Under the pieces are notes generated by a model. The model was given only the letters and a program-made list of their open reading frames with translations. It was not told the origin of the DNA and did not search any database. The position numbers and the translations under genes are program-made. From Planctomycetia bacterium (lineage in GTDB: Bacteria; Planctomycetota; Phycisphaerae; Phycisphaerales; SM1A02), in the NCBI GenBank assembly GCA_005804005.1, contig SYPI01000205.1, positions 1 through 8,317 of the forward strand: a stretch of DNA of 8,317 nucleotides, given 5' to 3'. Positions 2,116-8,317 of this stretch are shown in pieces (within the stretch, counting starts at the first letter, position 1; every line of letters starts with the position of its first letter).

Positions 2116-3059
2116 GGGGCCCCCGCCGCAACAGTCGCTGGCCACTCGCCGCGGCAAACCTCGACCGCTGGGCCAGCCTGGATCACATGCGAATCACTCT
2201 CGCGCCACTCCAACCGCAGCGCGCCGCCGGGCAGTTCAACCCGCACGCGCCGGGCGCAGCGACCCTGCCGAACCGCAGCGACCACCACCGCGCAGGCTCC
2301 CGTGCCACAGGCCTGCGTGATTCCCGCGCCGCGTTCCCAAGTGCGCATGCGCAGACCATCGCCAACGCGGGCAACAAAGTGCACATTGACTCGCCGCGGG
2401 AACCACGGATGGCGCTCGATCAACGGTCCGAGCCGTTCCAGGGGCACCGCCGCAACTTCACTGCAGAAAAACACTGCGTGCGGATTGCCCATGGAAACCA
2501 CGCTGATGGCCGACTCGACGCCAGCCGCATTCCGCCAGCCATCATCACCACCCAGCGCACTCCACCACTCGCCACTCAACTCGCGGCCGAACACTTCTTC
2601 TTCGCCGCGCACCCCGGGAATCGCCGCCGGTACACGGGCCATTTCCAGAATCGGCGCGTCCATGTCGACGGTGACCTCGCTCACCCCGCCATCCGCGTCC
2701 CGGCGCCACTGCACCGCAAGCACCCCGCGCCCGGTCTGCACTCGCAGCGGATTGGCGTCGGCCACACCCGAATCCACTGCCAACTTGCACAAGCAGCGCA
2801 GTCCATTGCCGCACATCTCCCCTTCGCTGCCGTCGGAGTTGAACATGCGCATGCGCACCTCGGCGTCCACTCCCGCCGCCGGACAACACAGCAGAATCAG
2901 CCCATCGCTGCCAACCCCGGTGTGGCGGTGACTCACCCGCCGAGTCAGTTCCGCCAGCTCGGCCACGGGAAGCGCCGCGACCGCCGCCTCATCCCCCCTA
3001 GTGCAATCCACCAGCACATAGTCGTTGCCGATCCCGTGATACTTGGCGAAGCGCATCAT
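2106..3059 (-). CDS. dapF: Diaminopimelate epimerase
   Basis: DapF converts LL-2,6-diaminopimelate to the meso form, the precursor of lysine and of the peptidoglycan cross-link residue, without a cofactor and using two cysteines. Both are present in their signature contexts: MCGNGLRC (Cys83) and ACGTGACA (Cys251). Other family marks are FAKYHGIGNDYV at the N-terminus, GVGSDGLI (48-55), MFNSDGSEGEMCGNG (72-86) and MGNPHAVFF (190-198). At 317 residues it is slightly longer than the usual 270-290; the extra length sits around residues 140-180 and at the C-terminus. Its ATG overlaps the TGA of the upstream lipoprotein gene (ATGA, 3059-3056); a second Met codon follows directly and could serve instead. 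Its 3' end overlaps the M20 peptidase start by 10 bases. The gene is therefore inside a tightly coupled operon. Confidence 0.97.
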   Translation of the reverse strand: MMRFAKYHGIGNDYVLVDCTRGDEAAVAALPVAELAELTRRVSHRHTGVGSDGLILLCCPAAGVDAEVRMRMFNSDGSEGEMCGNGLRCLCKLAVDSGVADANPLRVQTGRGVLAVQWRRDADGGVSEVTVDMDAPILEMARVPAAIPGVRGEEEVFGRELSGEWWSALGGDDGWRNAAGVESAISVVSMGNPHAVFFCSEVAAVPLERLGPLIERHPWFPRRVNVHFVARVGDGLRMRTWERGAGITQACGTGACAVVVAAVRQGRCARRVRVELPGGALRLEWRESDSHVIQAGPAVEVCRGEWPATVAAGAPCR

Positions 3060-4513
3060 GGTGCCGCTGGCCGCTTGATGGTTCCCATGTCCACCACCAC
3101 CTGGCCGCGCCGGTAGTAGTCGGCGTTCAGGGTGCGCGAGTCGATGAATGTGAAGACGACTCCATTGACCCCGGTGGCGTCCGCATACTGGAAGTCACCA
3201 TAGTGCGGCCCGGCATACTGACTGTTGTCGTGGGCCTGGCAGTGCAAGTGGAAGTGAGAAAGCGCCGCGTATCCGGCCTCGAACATGTCGTTGGAGGCCT
3301 CGAAGCGCACATCCCCGCCACGGATGCGCGGCGCGAATTCAACCACCTCGAGTCGCCCCAGCGTGTCCAGCCGGATGATCCCGCCGTACTCAGTGGAGAT
3401 GTCACGCAGGTCGCGGTCGGCTATCTCGAAGATGTGCGCCCGCACCGGGGCAATCGCCAGCGCCTCTCGAATCATGACGATGGCCAGCAGATCGCCCCAG
3501 GTGAGTTCCTTCTCGTGGGCCTGCAGGCGCTCCGAGTGCGTTCCTCCGTAGCCCTCGAAGTTGGCGGAGTAGCGCCGCGAGTCGCCATCTTCCACGCCCG
3601 CCGCCGCCAGAGCAAACAACTCGCCCTTTGACTTGCCCAGCAACTCGGGCCGACAACGCTGCGCGGCACCAATCACCGGGACATCTTTGAGTGAAACCTC
3701 GGCGCGCTCCGACGGACCCATGGCCGCCAGTCCCGCCGCGGCCGCCTGCCAGAGCGCCTCATGCCTCTCGCCAGCCAACATCTGCACCCACAGAACCTCC
3801 TCGCGGTTGCGCGGCAGCACGCCGAGTTCACGCGAGGCGCGCCGCAGGTCATGCAGCATCGGATCGTTCGCCCCCCCCGCGCCAGCGCCAACTTCGGCAG
3901 CCAGCAATTCAGTCAACCGCCGGGTGTGACCAGTCAGCACCAGCATCTCCCAGCAGCGCGCCCGGAGATTGGCCTCGCGAATCTGATCGGCGGCGATGAA
4001 TGTCTCCATCAGCACATCTGAAATCCGGTCCTGTCCCCACATGTCCGCCAGCGCCCGCGCCTCAGCTCGCTTGTTCAGGTCAGCCTCCCATGAGGGCATC
4101 GGCCGGGCCCAGGCCCGAATCAGCGTCGGGGTCATCTCCTTCCAGTCCAGTTCACCGATGCGCTGACACAGTTCCTCCCGCCACTGCAGAGAGTCCATCT
4201 TTGCCAGCCCGAGTTCCAGCGCGTGCCCCAACTCGACCCGATCGTGCAACAACTCCCGCTCAAACGCCATGCGGCGGGTGGCGATCGGATAGCCCGGCTG
4301 AACCACTATGCGCCGCAGGGCGCGCTGGTAGGCCGGATTGTTCGGCGTGGCATCCAGCAGATTCATGGCCGCTTCGTGGTCGTACGGCATGGCCGCGGGG
4401 TCATTCAGCGAGCTGATTGGGTCGCTCGGCGGCCGTACCGCACAGGCGCCACAGGCCATAGCCGCTCCCGCCAACAGGATCCGGAGGGAGACTCGCGCGC
4501 ATAGCGTTGACAT
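3056..4513 (-). CDS. Putative lipoprotein with C-terminal HxHxH...D (JAMM-like) motif
   Basis: I do not recognise a named family. From the ATG at 4513 the product is 485 residues. It opens with a lipoprotein-type signal: Arg7 and Arg11, then a hydrophobic stretch (LRILLAGAAMA) and a cysteine at 21 or 24 (AMAC or CGAC), followed by Pro/Ser-rich sequence. It is therefore predicted to be exported and lipid-anchored. Residues from about 50 to 300 are mostly helical-looking and rich in Leu, Ala, Arg and Glu. The C-terminus carries HFHLHC at 420-425 and GPHYGDFQYAD ending near 445. That spacing recalls the metal site of JAMM/MPN proteins (HxH, then SxxD), but with His where Ser is usual, so a metal site is only suggested. 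An in-frame start at 4573 is possible, but it would precede the signal peptide and nearly reach the divergent nfu start. It is the first gene of the operon and overlaps dapF by ATGA. Confidence 0.8.
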   Translation of the reverse strand: MSTLCARVSLRILLAGAAMACGACAVRPPSDPISSLNDPAAMPYDHEAAMNLLDATPNNPAYQRALRRIVVQPGYPIATRRMAFERELLHDRVELGHALELGLAKMDSLQWREELCQRIGELDWKEMTPTLIRAWARPMPSWEADLNKRAEARALADMWGQDRISDVLMETFIAADQIREANLRARCWEMLVLTGHTRRLTELLAAEVGAGAGGANDPMLHDLRRASRELGVLPRNREEVLWVQMLAGERHEALWQAAAAGLAAMGPSERAEVSLKDVPVIGAAQRCRPELLGKSKGELFALAAAGVEDGDSRRYSANFEGYGGTHSERLQAHEKELTWGDLLAIVMIREALAIAPVRAHIFEIADRDLRDISTEYGGIIRLDTLGRLEVVEFAPRIRGGDVRFEASNDMFEAGYAALSHFHLHCQAHDNSQYAGPHYGDFQYADATGVNGVVFTFIDSRTLNADYYRRGQVVVDMGTIKRPAAP

Positions 4514-4579
4514 CCTCGCCAAGTGTACGGGTGAGGCTGCGCAGGTGATTCGCACGCCACCGACGGCTACCATCGTCTC

Positions 4580-4837
4580 GTGGCCCGATTGCCCCGAGAT
4601 ACTGAGGACAACCCAACACTGGAGAGGATCCGCTCCGTGCTGGAGTTGATTCGCCCCGCAGTGCAGGGCGACGGCGGCGATGTTCAGTTGGCGTCGTTCG
4701 AAGACGGCGTGGTAGTGGTGCGTTTCAGCGGTGCCTGCATCGGCTGCCCATCGAAATCAATGACCATGACCCACGGCCTGGAAAAGACGATTCGCGAGCA
4801 TGTTCCGGAAGTGCGCGCGGTACGCGCTGAGAACTGA
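4580..4837 (+). CDS. NifU-like C-terminal domain protein (Nfu-type Fe-S scaffold)
   Basis: An 85-residue protein consisting of just an Nfu domain. The family holds a [4Fe-4S] cluster between two subunits through a CxxC motif and passes it to apo-proteins in the cytoplasm. Here the motif is GACIGCPSK with Cys53 and Cys56, preceded by the typical helix and strand IRPAVQGDGGDVQLASFEDGVVVVRFSG (24-51). The predicted start is GTG at 4580, with no clear ribosome site before it. A second GTG at 4637 has a good GGAGAGG eight bases upstream, but starting there would remove most of the first helix, so I keep the longer form. The gene stands alone: it is divergent from the lipoprotein gene (66 bases apart) and convergent with csrA, whose stop lies only 9 bases away. 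Confidence 0.9.
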   Translation: MARLPRDTEDNPTLERIRSVLELIRPAVQGDGGDVQLASFEDGVVVVRFSGACIGCPSKSMTMTHGLEKTIREHVPEVRAVRAEN

Positions 4838-4846
4838 CTCAGCGCC

Positions 4847-5083
4847 TCAGGCGCCAGTGCCGCCCTCGGCTGGGCGAATCTGCCCGATGATGTTTTGCTT
4901 GGTCTGTTCGCCAGCGACAATCTGATCGGCCACTTCGCGCCGATGCACGTCAACCTCACGCGGGAACTCAAACGCCAAGCGAACTCGGTCCCCCTTGATC
5001 GAAGCAACCCGGACGATTCCCAACGGGGACGCCGGGTTCCCGATTATGACTTCCTCCCCCTCGCGTCGCGTGATCACAAGCAT
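4847..5083 (-). CDS. csrA: Carbon storage regulator CsrA (RNA-binding translational regulator)
   Basis: CsrA is a small dimer that binds GGA motifs in hairpin loops and changes translation or stability of target mRNAs. The 78-residue product begins MLVITRREGEEVIIG, matching the family start. Thr5, Arg6 and Arg7, and the REVDVHRREV segment with Arg48 (equivalent to Arg44 of the E. coli protein) preserve the RNA-binding surface. Against E. coli CsrA it has about four extra residues in the second strand region (NPASPLG) and a longer Gly/Glu-rich tail. The ATG at 5083 is fixed by an excellent ribosome site, AGGAGG at 5096-5091, seven bases upstream; a longer open frame reaching 5278 is just noncoding leader. 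The GGA within this ribosome site and three more upstream suggest autorepression. Directly upstream, past a strong terminator, lies the GGA-hairpin RNA that could sequester this protein. No fliW (the protein antagonist of CsrA in many bacteria) is visible nearby. Confidence 0.96.
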   Translation of the reverse strand: MLVITRREGEEVIIGNPASPLGIVRVASIKGDRVRLAFEFPREVDVHRREVADQIVAGEQTKQNIIGQIRPAEGGTGA

Positions 5084-5170
5084 CGAGGGACCTCCTGCCC
5101 GCTTCAACTTGCCCGGGCCGCCATTGGCCCAGTCCATGCAAGTCTTGCTCCTGATCCTTCGGCCAAATCT
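5084..5170 (-). promoter_or_regulatory. csrA 5' leader with GGA motifs, hairpin and Shine-Dalgarno
   Basis: GGA occurs at 5157-5155 (AAGGA), 5151-5149 (CAGGA), 5135-5133 (AUGGA) and 5095-5093 (AGGA inside the AGGAGG ribosome site). UUGGCC at 5166-5161 pairs with GGCCAA at 5129-5124, and inside it GCAA (5148-5145) pairs with UUGC (5141-5138). The first three GGAs are thereby placed in the two sides of an internal loop. GGG and CCC also flank the ribosome site, so it can sit in a weak loop. This is the arrangement expected of a CsrA-autoregulated mRNA. The pairings are seen in the sequence; binding is inferred. I see no convincing promoter between 5278 and 5170. Confidence 0.6.
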
Positions 5171-5279
5171 GGACGAGGGTTGAGGGGGGCTCGCTGTATT
5201 TCGGAGGCCCCCTGCCTCAGCATGCAGAAATGGAAGCGCGAAGCCTCGAGAGGCGGTCCGATATCGCTGAGTTGGCAAT

Positions 5280-5315
5280 AAAAAGCCCCCGTAGGCCTAT
5301 TCAGCCTACGGGGGC
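5280..5315 (-). terminator. Rho-independent terminator of the mraZ/GGA-hairpin RNA unit
   Basis: A perfect 12-bp stem, GCCCCCGUAGGC (5315-5304) and GCCUACGGGGGC (5296-5285), with the seven-base loop UGAAUAG, is followed on the minus strand by five U residues (5284-5280) and then AUU. On the plus strand the stem is followed only by ATTTCTC, so the minus direction is the better fit. It ends transcription arriving from mraZ and the hairpin RNA and separates them from csrA, which should therefore have its own promoter. Confidence 0.92.
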
Positions 5316-5560
5316 ATTTCTCAAGAACGGGCCTCCAAGCCCGTGCCCTTTGCAGGGCCTACGCAGGGCGGCGATCCTTGCCGCGGTGCGCGTGTCAAAT
5401 CGGGCCGTCCATGGCCCGAACTGTTAGACGGAACCGTCCTGGTCCCGGGCCATGAGCAGGCATCCAGCCTGCGCATGACCATCGATTGTCGGCCGCGCCG
5501 TCCTTGGCGCGACCTTGAGCTCTGGGCTGACCGGGCAGTCCATTGCCCTGCTTCGCCCTG
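5280..5560 (-). ncRNA. CsrB/RsmZ-like CsrA-sequestering RNA (seven GGA-loop hairpins plus terminator)
   Basis: Read on the minus strand, seven successive hairpins each expose GGA in the loop. GGGCA/UGCCC with loop AUGGAC (5548-5533). CGCGCC/GGCGCG with AAGGAC (5511-5494). GCAGGC/GCCUGC with UGGAU (5472-5456). GGGACC/GGUUCC, one G-U pair, with AGGAC (5446-5430). UCGGGCC/GGCCCGA with AUGGAC (5419-5400). GCGGC/GCCGC with AAGGAUC (5384-5368). ACGGGC/GCCCGU with UUGGAG (5344-5327). An eighth hairpin (GCCCU/AGGGC, 5358-5345) has a GCAA tetraloop instead, and the RNA ends at a strong terminator. The minus strand has eight GGAs between 5581 and 5316, seven of them in loops; the plus strand has two. 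This is the design of CsrB/CsrC and RsmX/Y/Z, which soak up several CsrA dimers. No protein frame here looks real. The 5' end is uncertain: no clear promoter is seen, so the RNA may be cut from the mraZ transcript (stop at 5582) or have its own start in the end of mraZ. Confidence 0.85.
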
Positions 5561-5581
5561 TACCGAGTCGGATCGCAGACT

Positions 5582-6049
5582 TCATGCCCGCTGATCCTTG
5601 TTGCTCATTGCGGCCCGCGCCTTGCGCCAGATATCCCCCGCTGCTGGAGCGAGCCGAGCCTGTTCCTGCTGCCAATGCTGTGGACTGCAGAGTTCCAGAT
5701 GATCGCGTACTCCCAGAATCATCACCTTGTCCGTCAGTCCATGCTGACTGAGCAGGCGTTCTGGGATTCGGATTCGACCGGCGCCATCGAGGGGCAACGC
5801 TGCGGCCTTGCTGAAGACATGCCGTTCGAAGTCCGTCAATGATTCGTCGGCCAAGAGCGACCCACCCAGTTTCTCCGCCAGCGTTGCAAAGGTCTTCTCC
5901 GGCCACAGCCACAGCGAGCCGTTGGGTCCCGGCATCCCCACAAATCCCGCGCCGTGAATCGCTGGGTTCAGACCCGAGCGCACTTCGGCTGGGACTGCCA
6001 GCCTGCGCTTGGGGTCCAGGGCATGTTCGTACTCGCCAAGAAATAGCAC
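5582..6049 (-). CDS. mraZ: Transcriptional regulator MraZ
   Basis: MraZ is a DNA-binding protein with two AbrB-like (SpoVT-AbrB) halves that forms rings and represses its own promoter, which usually heads the division and cell-wall (dcw) cluster. Both DxxxR signature motifs are present in the 155-residue product: HALDPKRRLAVPAEVR (residues 9-24) and LPLDGAGRIRIPERLL (85-100), followed by VMILGVRDHLELCSPQHW (109-126). The N-terminus FLGEYEHALD is typical. The start is GTG at 6049, supported by AAGGTGA (6059-6053) six bases upstream; the ATG four bases before it is out of frame. Four 10-bp GTG repeats lie just upstream as the likely operator. Unusually, rsmH/mraW and ftsI do not follow. Instead the gene runs into a GGA-hairpin RNA and a terminator, then csrA. 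A 282-codon open frame overlapping this gene is a shadow. Confidence 0.96.
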   Translation of the reverse strand: MLFLGEYEHALDPKRRLAVPAEVRSGLNPAIHGAGFVGMPGPNGSLWLWPEKTFATLAEKLGGSLLADESLTDFERHVFSKAAALPLDGAGRIRIPERLLSQHGLTDKVMILGVRDHLELCSPQHWQQEQARLAPAAGDIWRKARAAMSNKDQRA

Positions 6050-6078
6050 TCATCACCTTCGGTTGGAGGTCATCGGTC

Positions 6079-6106
6079 AACATACCCACTTTGCCACACA
6101 ATGCAA
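6079..6106 (-). promoter_or_regulatory. Candidate mraZ promoter (TTGCAT - 16 - TATGTT)
   Basis: On the minus strand a -35-like TTGCAT (6106-6101) and a -10-like TATGTT (6084-6079) are separated by 16 bases. A transcript starting near 6072 would have a leader of about 23 bases before the GTG at 6049. The element overlaps the MraZ repeats, as expected for autorepression. The match is only partial, so the exact boxes are uncertain. Confidence 0.4.
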
Positions 6107-6119
6107 CACAACGATTCAC
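6080..6119 (-). promoter_or_regulatory. MraZ operator: four direct repeats at 10-bp spacing
   Basis: On the minus strand four 10-base units each begin with GTG: GTGAATCGTT (6119-6110), GTGTTGCATT (6109-6100), GTGTGGCAAA (6099-6090) and GTGGGTATGT (6089-6080). MraZ is known to bind short TGG/GTG-type repeats with about one helical turn between them, just upstream of its own gene, and this set ends 30 bases before the mraZ start. The first unit is the weakest match. The operator overlaps the candidate promoter. Confidence 0.75.
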
Positions 6120-6144
6120 TACAAGTCCTTTTTGCGACACCTGA

Positions 6145-6156
6145 ATCAGGCCTGAT
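6145..6156. repeat. 12-bp perfect palindrome in the divergent mraZ/flavin-reductase spacer
   Basis: ATCAGGCCTGAT is a perfect palindrome. It overlaps a second one, CCTGAATCAGG at 6140-6150, so the CCTGA/TCAGG half-site occurs repeatedly within 17 bases. It falls between TTGCGA (6132-6137) and TGATAA (6153-6158), a possible but short-spaced (15 bases) plus-strand promoter for the gene at 6287. It could be an operator for that gene; no known regulator is identified. Confidence 0.4.
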
Positions 6157-6286
6157 AACCGAATGCAAGGCTGCAACATGAATGGCAACAAGAAGTTATG
6201 GACGACAACATTTTCTTGAGGCATTGTTTTCCTGAAGGGCCCCTGATTTCCACCATTGGGCCGGAGCCCCACCGCAAGAGTCCCCG

Positions 6287-6907
6287 ATGCAGACCGATTG
6301 GACCCCGGCAGATCACGCGGCCGTCAAGCAGATCATGGAACTCGTCCCCTCGGAGTTCCACCTGCTGACAAGTTGTTTTGCCGAAGCCCGCGCTGGGATC
6401 GTGGTGCGGTTCGTGCAGCGCTGCGGCGTGACCCCACCGATGCTGGCTGTGGCGGTTGAGAAGGGTCAGCCGATCAGCCCGATCGTGCGCGACAGTCGGG
6501 CGTTTGCGGTGTGTGTGCTGGATCGAACTGACACCGCGCTGCGGCGACACTTCTCGCCCAGCAACTCAGTCGGCGATCCGTTCCTGGGCTTGGCTTGCAT
6601 CCACACTCCCAGCGGTTGTCCCGTGCCCGCGCGGGCGATCGGCTGGTTCGACTGCGAACTGGTGCGCCACCTCGATGTGGAGAGCGATCACGAAATCTAT
6701 TTCGGCATGGTGCATCACGCCGCGCGACGGGGCGGTCCGACCGCCAGCATCAGCGCCAAGGTCAATGGCAACGGCAACGGCACAGCGCAGACCAACGGTT
6801 CCGCGGCAAAGGCGGCCCGTGTTCGCACCAATGGAATCAGTGCGCCGACGCCAGCTCGAGCAGCGCGCGCGAAACGGCGTTCACATCGCCGTGCGGAAAA
6901 ACGCTGA
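6287..6907 (+). CDS. Flavin reductase-like (FMN-binding split barrel) protein with basic low-complexity tail
   Basis: The 206-residue product has a split-barrel flavin-binding domain at about residues 15-148. Recognisable parts are the start VPSEFHLLTSCF (20-31), TPPMLAVAVEKGQPISPIVRDSRAFAVCVL (49-78), a FSPSNSVGDPF region (89-99) and the closing strand AIGWFDCELVRHLDVESDHEIYFGMV (117-142). Such proteins bind FMN or FAD and reduce it with NAD(P)H or act as small oxidoreductases; the substrate is unknown. From residue 150 the protein turns into a tail without fold: Asn-Gly repeats (159-165), Ala/Thr/Gly-rich spacer, then a strongly basic end (ARAKRRSHRRAEKR, 193-206). The tail could contact nucleic acid or membrane, which is inference. 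The ATG at 6287 has only a weak ribosome site. The last 71 bases overlap the 3' end of the opposite gene. Confidence 0.82.
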   Translation: MQTDWTPADHAAVKQIMELVPSEFHLLTSCFAEARAGIVVRFVQRCGVTPPMLAVAVEKGQPISPIVRDSRAFAVCVLDRTDTALRRHFSPSNSVGDPFLGLACIHTPSGCPVPARAIGWFDCELVRHLDVESDHEIYFGMVHHAARRGGPTASISAKVNGNGNGTAQTNGSAAKAARVRTNGISAPTPARAARAKRRSHRRAEKR

Positions 6908-7760
6908 GTTGGGCGCCGGGAGCGGCCGCCCCGAGCGCTTCACCATTGCGGACTCCGGTGCGCATGTATTCGACGGCACCAGTCGGCGGGCGGCTCTCGG
7001 TGGAGGCCAGCAGCAGCAATCCGGCGTCTACGGCCCACCATGCCCCGATCGCACTGGGGGCAGGAAGGCCGCGGGATTCGCCCGCCGTGGATGGACCACT
7101 GAACAGCGCCAAGTCGGCGCACCAGACCATTCGCTCCAGTTCACCAGCACCAACTGTTGAGATTCGCGCCGGAACTCTGGTCGCCGCCAAGTAGGCCCGC
7201 GCCTGAGACAAGTCGCTCACACCCTCGGGAACGATGAGCGTCAACTCCGCCCCGCAGACTCCGGCGCGCGTCAGCAACTCCGTGGCAAAGATCAGGTCGA
7301 GCGCCGCTGGCGGCGAACCCATGAGCACGATTGCTCGACCCTTCCCAACGCCAAGTCGCTGGCGCAATCCAGCCCGCTCATCGCCTGAACCGATCTCCAG
7401 CCGCGGCGGCGCCACCTCATGATCGGCCCAGTGTTCTGCGGCCGGACTGACAATGCCCAGATCTGCGCCCCGCGTTGCACACCACTGCCAAGCGCGCCGT
7501 CCCCACGGCCGCACCCGCATCGGACCAGAGGGTGGCTGAAGCTGACGCACCGCTCGGTCGATTGGCTGCAGCCAGCGGCCCAGCGGCCGCACCACGCGCA
7601 CCTCGCCCGTCTGCGCCGACCCAGAGTCGCGCCCATCCGCTCCAGGCCCGATGATCACCACCGGGCCATTGGCCCCCGCCGAGCGCCAATGAACAAACGC
7701 CGCCATTCCAGCTTCCCCAAGGCTCTCTCGATCAACGAGCTGGATCTCGCCCGCCAACAC
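6837..7760 (-). CDS. GT4-like (GT-B fold) glycosyltransferase-related protein, divergent
   Basis: A 307-residue product that I assign tentatively. The second half follows the C-terminal domain of family 4 glycosyltransferases: GDERAGLRQRLGVGKGRAIVLMGSP (126-150), AELTLIVPEG (171-180), then VGAGELERMVWCADLALFSGPSTAGESRGLPAPSAIGAWWAVDAGLLLLAS (203-252), which looks like the usual acidic/aliphatic sugar-nucleotide region. The canonical EX7E glutamates are not clearly present and the first domain (residues 1-110) is short, so the protein may be inactive or a remote relative. I chose GTG at 7760, one base after the stop of the upstream gene (TAG C GTG), implying coupling. An ATG at 7706 with GGGGA upstream would give 289 residues and is a fair alternative. 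Sequence upstream of 7760 in this frame is a shadow. The 3' end overlaps the flavin reductase gene on the opposite strand. Confidence 0.62.
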   Translation of the reverse strand: MLAGEIQLVDRESLGEAGMAAFVHWRSAGANGPVVIIGPGADGRDSGSAQTGEVRVVRPLGRWLQPIDRAVRQLQPPSGPMRVRPWGRRAWQWCATRGADLGIVSPAAEHWADHEVAPPRLEIGSGDERAGLRQRLGVGKGRAIVLMGSPPAALDLIFATELLTRAGVCGAELTLIVPEGVSDLSQARAYLAATRVPARISTVGAGELERMVWCADLALFSGPSTAGESRGLPAPSAIGAWWAVDAGLLLLASTESRPPTGAVEYMRTGVRNGEALGAAAPGAQLSVFPHGDVNAVSRALLELASAH

Positions 7761-7761
7761 G

Positions 7762-8317
7762 CTACGGCTTGATGCCCAGCCCGGCGCCGAGCTCCCGCTT
7801 CTCGTGGTCGTAGAACAACTCGGCAATCTCCGTACCGAACTCGACGGCCAGCTCGTCTTCAATCTGGCGGCGGCCGGTAGTGTTGCCGTAGCGATCGGGT
7901 GCCACCTCGCGCATCTGCGACTGCACCAGCTCCCCGCTGGTCCCGCTCGGAAACAGCGCCTCGCGCGCCACCGCATCAATCACCCGGACTCTGGCTGACG
8001 CCGCCGGCTTCGGCGTTACCCCGTCGAGGCTGATCCGATAGGTCATCATCTCCACATAGATGAGTTGCTCGGCCCCCAGATCGCGGGCGATGCGCTCCAT
8101 CGAGAGGTGCTGCCCAGCCCGCTCATTGCGGGCTAGATTGTGGGCATCCCGCGGGGCCACCACATCGGGAACCAGCTTCTGCGTCAGGAGGGCGGTGGCG
8201 ATGGCATCACCGATCTCATCGCGCAGCCGACTGCGACTGATGGTGTTGGTGCGGTCATCGACGAAAATTGCCGTCTTGCGCTCGGGCAGGGTGTACTTGG
8301 CCGGGAGTTTCGGCGGA
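7762..8317 (-). CDS. Conserved-looking protein of unknown function, partial (N-terminus beyond right edge)
   Basis: The frame is open from the right edge to a TAG at 7762, giving 184 visible residues. The true start and any signal peptide are outside the window; GTG codons at 8163-8158 are internal because the upstream sequence (PPKLPAKYTLPERKTAIFVDDRTN) is protein-like. The visible part reads as an alpha/beta domain: a strand TAIFVDD, helix LRDEIGDAIATALLTQKLVPDVV, helix ERIARDLGAEQLIYVEM, then strands and a C-terminal helix IEDELAVEFGTEIAELFYDHEKRE. That order recalls periplasmic lipoproteins of the LpoB/CsgG type, in which a short N-terminal Pro-rich linker follows the lipidated cysteine, but I cannot name a family. 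It is translated just ahead of the GT4-like gene and probably shares its transcript. Confidence 0.7.
   Translation of the reverse strand, partial: PPKLPAKYTLPERKTAIFVDDRTNTISRSRLRDEIGDAIATALLTQKLVPDVVAPRDAHNLARNERAGQHLSMERIARDLGAEQLIYVEMMTYRISLDGVTPKPAASARVRVIDAVAREALFPSGTSGELVQSQMREVAPDRYGNTTGRRQIEDELAVEFGTEIAELFYDHEKRELGAGLGIKP

Follow-up and report, generated by a model that had tools for sequence, protein, structure and literature searches.

A planctomycete genome carries, immediately downstream of mraZ, an array of seven hairpins that each present GGA in the loop, which we predict to be a CsrA-sequestering RNA that recurs in most of the same-family genomes examined. We put the probability of this reading at about 0.82. 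The hairpins, their recurrence, the covariation of their stems, and a common loop motif are what this analysis shows. The window, by which we mean the whole 8,317-nucleotide stretch analysed, belongs to an assembly of 1.32 Mb in 276 contigs that is 56% complete. A first-pass annotation made from the letters alone had named a probable planctomycete as host, and the MraZ protein agrees with this. Twenty of its 24 nearest named relatives are labelled as planctomycete, 8 of these 20 as Phycisphaera-type, and the other four are two entries labelled uncultured bacterium, one with a Chitinophaga name, and one from Victivallaceae.

Structure of the array

Folding of the minus strand from 5581 to 5279 gave the seven GGA-loop hairpins and the terminator that the first-pass annotation had described, the terminator with a 13-bp stem. 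The predicted energy was -167.3 kcal/mol, compared with a mean of -128.9 across 100 shuffles (z -6.98), none of which was as good. The reported strand bias was also reproduced: ahead of the terminator tail, GGA occurs eight times on the minus strand while its complement TCC occurs twice, and seven of the eight GGAs lie in loops, the eighth being in the stem of hairpin 4. The span originally given, 5280..5560, located the array correctly but was slightly too narrow, as the feature starts at the mraZ stop and reaches approximately 5279. Features at and around the array, all on the minus strand, are as follows.

5279..5581, minus: GGA-hairpin array with terminator, predicted CsrA-sequestering RNA (fold z -6.98; seven GGA loops)
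5533..5548, minus: hairpin 1, loop AUGGAC (fold)
5491..5514, minus: hairpin 2, loop AAGGAC (fold; one compensatory pair relative to G001, a genome of the same genus)
5448..5480, minus: hairpin 3, loop UGGAU (fold; no counterpart in the G001 alignment)
5429..5447, minus: hairpin 4, loop AGGAC (fold; no counterpart in the G001 alignment)
5400..5419, minus: hairpin 5, loop AUGGAC (fold; one compensatory pair relative to G001)
5361..5391, minus: hairpin 6, loop AAGGAUC, plus an outer stem (fold; two pairs double-changed relative to G001)
5327..5344, minus: hairpin 7, loop UUGGAG (fold; same stem in G001)
5279..5315, minus: rho-independent terminator (13 pairs at 5315-5285, then TTTTTA)
5582..6049, minus: mraZ, which consistently precedes the array (PF02381, 66.7 bits; cut-off 23)
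4847..5083, minus: csrA, divergent paralogue and predicted ligand of the array (PF02599, 53.4 bits against a cut-off of 27)
6081..6110, minus: three imperfect 10-bp repeats 5' of mraZ, MraZ-box-like (sequence; conserved in 12 relatives)
6101..6106, minus: candidate -35 of the mraZ promoter, TTGCAT (by eye from the alignment)
6079..6084, minus: candidate -10 of the mraZ promoter, TATGTT, 16 nt past the -35 (by eye from the alignment)

In the 300 nt after mraZ, the window contains seven GGA loops, compared with a mean of 0.4 and a maximum of 1 in 15 dinucleotide shuffles. Every other 300-nt segment on either strand of the 8.3 kb has at most two. A scripted rule for loops with the sequence ANGGA recognized four of the seven hairpins, and hairpins 2 and 5 alone match the strict family consensus, CANGGAYG.

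Gene neighbourhood

The minus strand of the window reads mraZ (6049-5582), the non-coding stretch, and csrA (5083-4847), with a NifU-like gene at 4580-4837 on the plus strand convergent with csrA. The first-pass annotation had based its functional link on adjacency to csrA. This gene is indeed nearby, but the tie is to mraZ: among 57 family genomes, csrA runs in the same direction as mraZ in 12, is convergent with it in 40, and lies beyond the fetched stretch in four, with G022 counted in neither orientation group. At 23 planctomycete-type loci, csrA follows mraZ in 20 and is convergent in three. The constant neighbour of the array is mraZ, not csrA, and for this reason we dropped the idea of a csrA-linked element.

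The csrA ribosome-binding region of the window (5084-5105, minus strand) contains CAGGAGG, as do the csrA leaders of L032, L045, and L046, and the GGA within it could serve CsrA autoregulation. The long frames at 3056-4573, 6837-7979, and 7762-8316 (minus) had no Pfam match at E 0.001.

Recurrence after mraZ

We found an mraZ match in 95 of 101 relatives and compared the sequence downstream of mraZ in 57 same-family genomes and in 24 others of the order, the latter taken from 37 genomes outside the family with a match. Family genomes left out were G010, G014, and G038, which had no mraZ match, and G041; G029, with 129 nt after mraZ, was uncounted. Each genome was shuffled 15 times, giving 1,200 shuffles over 80 genomes.

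GGA loops were strongly enriched on the RNA strand. Within the first 300 nt past mraZ, the 56 family genomes contain 182 GGA loops, compared with 20.1 in shuffles and five on the opposite strand, and 148 ANGGA loops, compared with 2.2 and none. The pattern was the same with one genome per genus (n = 40; 131 GGA loops compared with 14.8 shuffled and five on the opposite strand). At least two ANGGA loops were present in 47 of the 56 family genomes and in none of the 1,200 shuffles over 80 genomes; the other nine had fewer than two, and G023 had zero. The first-pass annotation had staked its reading on relatives carrying GGA loops at the same place, and they do so both here and at all 23 planctomycete-type loci, where the mraZ-csrA spacer holds three to six GGA loops under a rule that includes the closing pair. 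At the Victivallaceae locus the count is one.

The enrichment is also local. When 300-nt segments on both strands of 24 loci (the source and 23 relatives) were ranked, the segment with the top count overlapped the start of the array, with a tie between the top segment and distant ones at L193. At L191, the segment from the mraZ stop has zero loops and the top segment starts 150 nt earlier. Away from the array, one of 1,750 segments has three GGA loops. Across the 56 family genomes, the terminal 300 nt of mraZ itself contain 40 GGA and 18 ANGGA loops, which is fewer than in the array and more than in shuffles of the downstream sequence, and some of the loop signal may extend into mraZ. Under strict criteria, 34 of 57 family genomes gave a terminator in the 600 nt past mraZ.

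A weaker signal, judged against shuffles and the opposite strand, reaches into the rest of the class. Among the other families of the order, GGA loops exceeded shuffles in f2 (23 compared with 2.5, seven genomes), f3 (2 compared with 0.3, one genome), f5 (11 compared with 1.5, seven genomes), and f6 (13 compared with 2.3, six genomes), while f4 had two compared with 1.2 in three genomes and no ANGGA loops. At least two ANGGA loops occurred in 10 of these 24 genomes. For the class, we inspected the loci of the best-scoring 30 of 114 matching genomes, and the 27 of these 30 that lie outside the order contain 33 GGA loops (8.9 shuffled, two on the opposite strand), 21 ANGGA loops (1.3 shuffled, none opposite), and 16 CANGGAYG motifs compared with one, with at least two ANGGA loops in 5 of the 27. 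The GGA and ANGGA excess at these 27 loci speaks against an array limited to the order.

Stem covariation

Stems of the array vary between relatives while the loops keep GGA. We aligned L181:3472-3715 with 12 relatives, leaving out the source window, and in this 13-sequence clade (alignment A1), GGA is invariant in three loops and the stems are variable. RNAalifold recovered the same hairpins from A1, with 15 of 39 pairs double-changed in at least one sequence. In the three GGA hairpins, 93.2% of cells are paired, compared with 79.2% in shuffles. Pairs with a double change number 13 compared with 9.7 shuffled, a value reached by 7 of 500 shuffles, and double-changed cells number 49 compared with 18.0 (0 of 500). 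The covariation score was 0.434 compared with 0.177 shuffled (0 of 500) and 0.046-0.134 when the partners were slid; we note that the structure tested came from A1 itself and that kinship among sequences can push such values above shuffles. Since the slid-partner controls were low, kinship is unlikely to be the sole cause of the covariation.

The source window gave a similar picture when compared with G001, in which hairpins 2, 5, 6, and 7 are shared, as matched by eye. Of 27 pairs, 21 are identical, two are changed on one side, four are compensatory, and none is broken. The first-pass annotation had looked to relatives for conserved GGA loops with compensatory stem changes, and pair counting, used here in place of R-scape, found them in both comparisons. 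The terminator hairpin including its loop (GCGTCACTGGCCCGACGC) is nearly identical across the 13 A1 sequences, far more so than the array that precedes it.

Loop motif

The loops share an octamer. From 134 loops, taken from one genome per genus, we derived the consensus C-A-N-G-G-A-Y-G, with frequencies of 0.84 for the C, 0.81 for the A, 0.81 for the Y, and 0.78 for the final G. In 12,129 bases, the RNA strand has 98 copies of CANGGAYG and the opposite strand has two. This consensus fits the apical hexaloop CANGGANG, given as a high-affinity CsrA/RsmE target in PMC4894983, and we read the loops as putative CsrA sites.

Searching whole genomes for three CANGGAYG-type motifs in a row gave a match in 29 of 101, compared with 5 for the reversed pattern. 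In 12 of these 29 the match lies after mraZ (G017, G024, G025, G030, G042, G043, G053, G055, G056, G060, G078, and G092); in the others, by eye and among the matches listed, it falls in tandem or coding repeats or in single places. The search found no match in the source window, and so it is specific rather than sensitive. Long CACGGACGCGG-type tandem repeats, present in many places in G020 and G021, also match the motif, and G021 contains 396 forward and 380 reverse pattern matches.

Transcription and alternative explanations

The array probably forms the 3' terminus of the mraZ transcript. Where a hairpin is present (55 genomes), the first GGA hairpin begins a median of 56 nt past the mraZ stop. 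TTGCAT- and TATA-like hexamers are conserved 5' of mraZ in 12 relatives and overlap three 10-bp repeats of GTGGG type, which we take to resemble MraZ boxes. A sigma-70 scan, covering one promoter type, reported no site in 5200-6280 and also passed over the candidate mraZ hexamers. Identity at mraZ third positions was 0.56-0.67 in the last 40 codons, compared with 0.45-0.69 in codons 11-120, so that the 12 relatives gave no clear third-position constraint at the mraZ 3' end. With no promoter found in 5200-6280 and no rise in identity at the 3' end of mraZ, a shared transcript is favoured.

These results also bear on the possibility that the array is a separate CsrB-type sRNA gene with its promoter inside mraZ. 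CsrB-type sRNAs are usually separate genes that stand alone, and the array has its own terminator, as such a gene would. However, the scan of 5200-6280 found no promoter-like site, and the third positions at the 3' end of mraZ have no clear constraint. We therefore regard a separate gene as rather unlikely.

The array could instead be a purely cis-acting CsrA site in the mraZ mRNA, controlling the stability of that mRNA and drawing no CsrA from other targets. Its start close to the mraZ stop and the lack of a promoter of its own in the scan are both consistent with this, but seven loops in the window and three to six in all 23 relatives exceed what one CsrA dimer needs; the flaA leader of Campylobacter jejuni, which antagonizes CsrA from within an mRNA, has two loops (PMC4894983). 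A site with this restricted role is improbable. Finally, although the tandem repeats of G020 and G021 match the motif too, it is very hard to credit that the hairpins are palindromes of a structural or mobile kind (stabilisers of the 3' end or REP-like repeats) unrelated to CsrA, given that their stems differ from one another and covary around an invariant GGA and that their loops carry the octamer of the CsrA hexaloop.

Two further features of the mraZ region were observed. In mraZ codons 1-10, third positions are 95% identical across 12 relatives, compared with about 45-69% later, which suggests constraint on the start of the mRNA. Farther 5' than the mraZ promoter, 12 relatives (the L180-L193 set) conserve a TTGTCCACAAA-like block that resembles a DnaA box.

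CsrA paralogues and FliW

Most family genomes encode more than one CsrA. At least 46 of 61 had at least two csrA matches, usually one of them canonical, among the matches listed. The CsrA of the window is of the divergent form and has a four-residue insertion relative to solved CsrAs. In 59 sequences, with L090 and L091 left out of the 60 csrA loci, T5, R6, E10, R31, and R44 (E. coli-type numbering) are kept in all 59, R7 in 58, H43 in 56, V42 in 55, and V40 in 40, while L4 is replaced by I in 56. The window CsrA and its relatives retain the residues that we take to contact RNA. The ligand of the predicted sponge could be either paralogue, since family f5, which has a single canonical CsrA in eight of nine genomes (among the matches listed), has at least two ANGGA loops in three of the seven examined.

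FliW was present in 88 of 101 genomes. Of the family genomes, 37 of 43 that encode FliW and 10 of 13 that lack it have at least two ANGGA loops after mraZ, which rules out an RNA that plainly substitutes for FliW; most family genomes with the array encode FliW as well, and the array is not a simple stand-in. These 37 genomes also make joint action of FliW and an RNA directly testable. A 2020 review describes joint action of FliW and sRNAs in any species as still to be determined (PMC7652899). FliW and canonical CsrA were missing together in 12 genomes with divergent CsrA as the sole match among those listed: FliW was absent from all 12, two of which have low completeness (G000 at 56% and G046 at 65%).

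Proposed mechanism

We infer transcription, co-transcription with mraZ, CsrA binding, sequestration, and control by MraZ, and these steps could connect as follows. Transcription would start at the mraZ promoter with its MraZ-box-like repeats, pass through mraZ and the array, and end at the terminator. The array would then remain attached at the 3' end or be cleaved off, and could bind several CsrA dimers, with one loop per binding face. CsrA held in this way would release the mRNAs that it represses, and MraZ, by regulating the mraZ promoter, would determine the amount of sponge.

A broader version of this idea, to which we give somewhat less than even odds, is that an independently evolved sponge sits at the 3' end of the mraZ mRNA across the class, MraZ being the regulator of the division cluster, so that an autorepressed promoter sets the level of free CsrA. 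The sponge would act jointly with FliW in members that encode FliW and alone in members that lack FliW and have a single, divergent CsrA.

Comparison with known CsrA antagonists

The array had been described as CsrB/RsmZ-type by the first-pass annotation. This is apt for its many GGA loops and its terminator, but no Csr or Rsm model, nor any other Rfam family, reached its cut-off. The best match in the source window was RsmW (grouped with RsmY in Rfam clan CL00106), which scored 25.7 bits where 52 are required (E 0.4), and the loci of 17 relatives gave zero families at gathering score. Membership of a known Rfam family was rejected on these grounds.

Like CsrB, CsrC, and RsmW/X/Y/Z of Gammaproteobacteria, the array combines numerous hairpins with GGA loops and a rho-independent terminator on a single RNA, and it is predicted to hold several CsrA dimers as those sRNAs do. 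By analogy, given its many predicted CsrA sites, it should act as CsrB and RsmZ do. The BarA-UvrY and GacS-GacA systems control Csr/Rsm sRNAs through an upstream box, TGTAAGN6CTTACA, which had zero matches in the source window with up to three mismatches. The array differs from these sRNAs in its position after mraZ, probably at an mRNA 3' end, in having no GacA/UvrY box, and in its planctomycete host.

CsrA-binding RNAs have also been predicted outside Gammaproteobacteria. TwoAYGGAY (RF01731) and Bacillaceae-1 (RF01690, read as its reverse complement), from Clostridia and Bacillales/Lactobacillales, share with the array predicted CsrA sites in hairpin loops, a prediction that its source did not validate (PMC4333381). 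They belong to other phyla and, from the name, have two hairpins rather than seven, and neither model matched the source window up to E 10. The same paper, from 2014, states that sRNAs sequestering CsrA were at that time known from Gammaproteobacteria alone (PMC4333381), and a 2015 study listed Planctomycetes among groups possibly using FliW instead (PMC4682653). Within the literature covered, mostly papers open without subscription, we found no description of an RNA that binds CsrA either in Planctomycetota or downstream of mraZ, and no link between MraZ and CsrA. If true, a recurrent array after mraZ in a planctomycete family would mean that CsrA RNA sponges arose more than once.

FliW is a protein antagonist of CsrA and, like the array as predicted, would lower free CsrA. 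The flaA leader of C. jejuni and the fimAICDHF leader of Salmonella are, like the array as predicted, CsrA antagonists borne on an mRNA (PMC4894983). The flaA leader acts beside FliW in that account and so offers a precedent for an mRNA-borne antagonist in a FliW-encoding cell. Both are 5' leaders, flaA with two GGA hairpins, whereas the array is long and lies 3' of a coding region.
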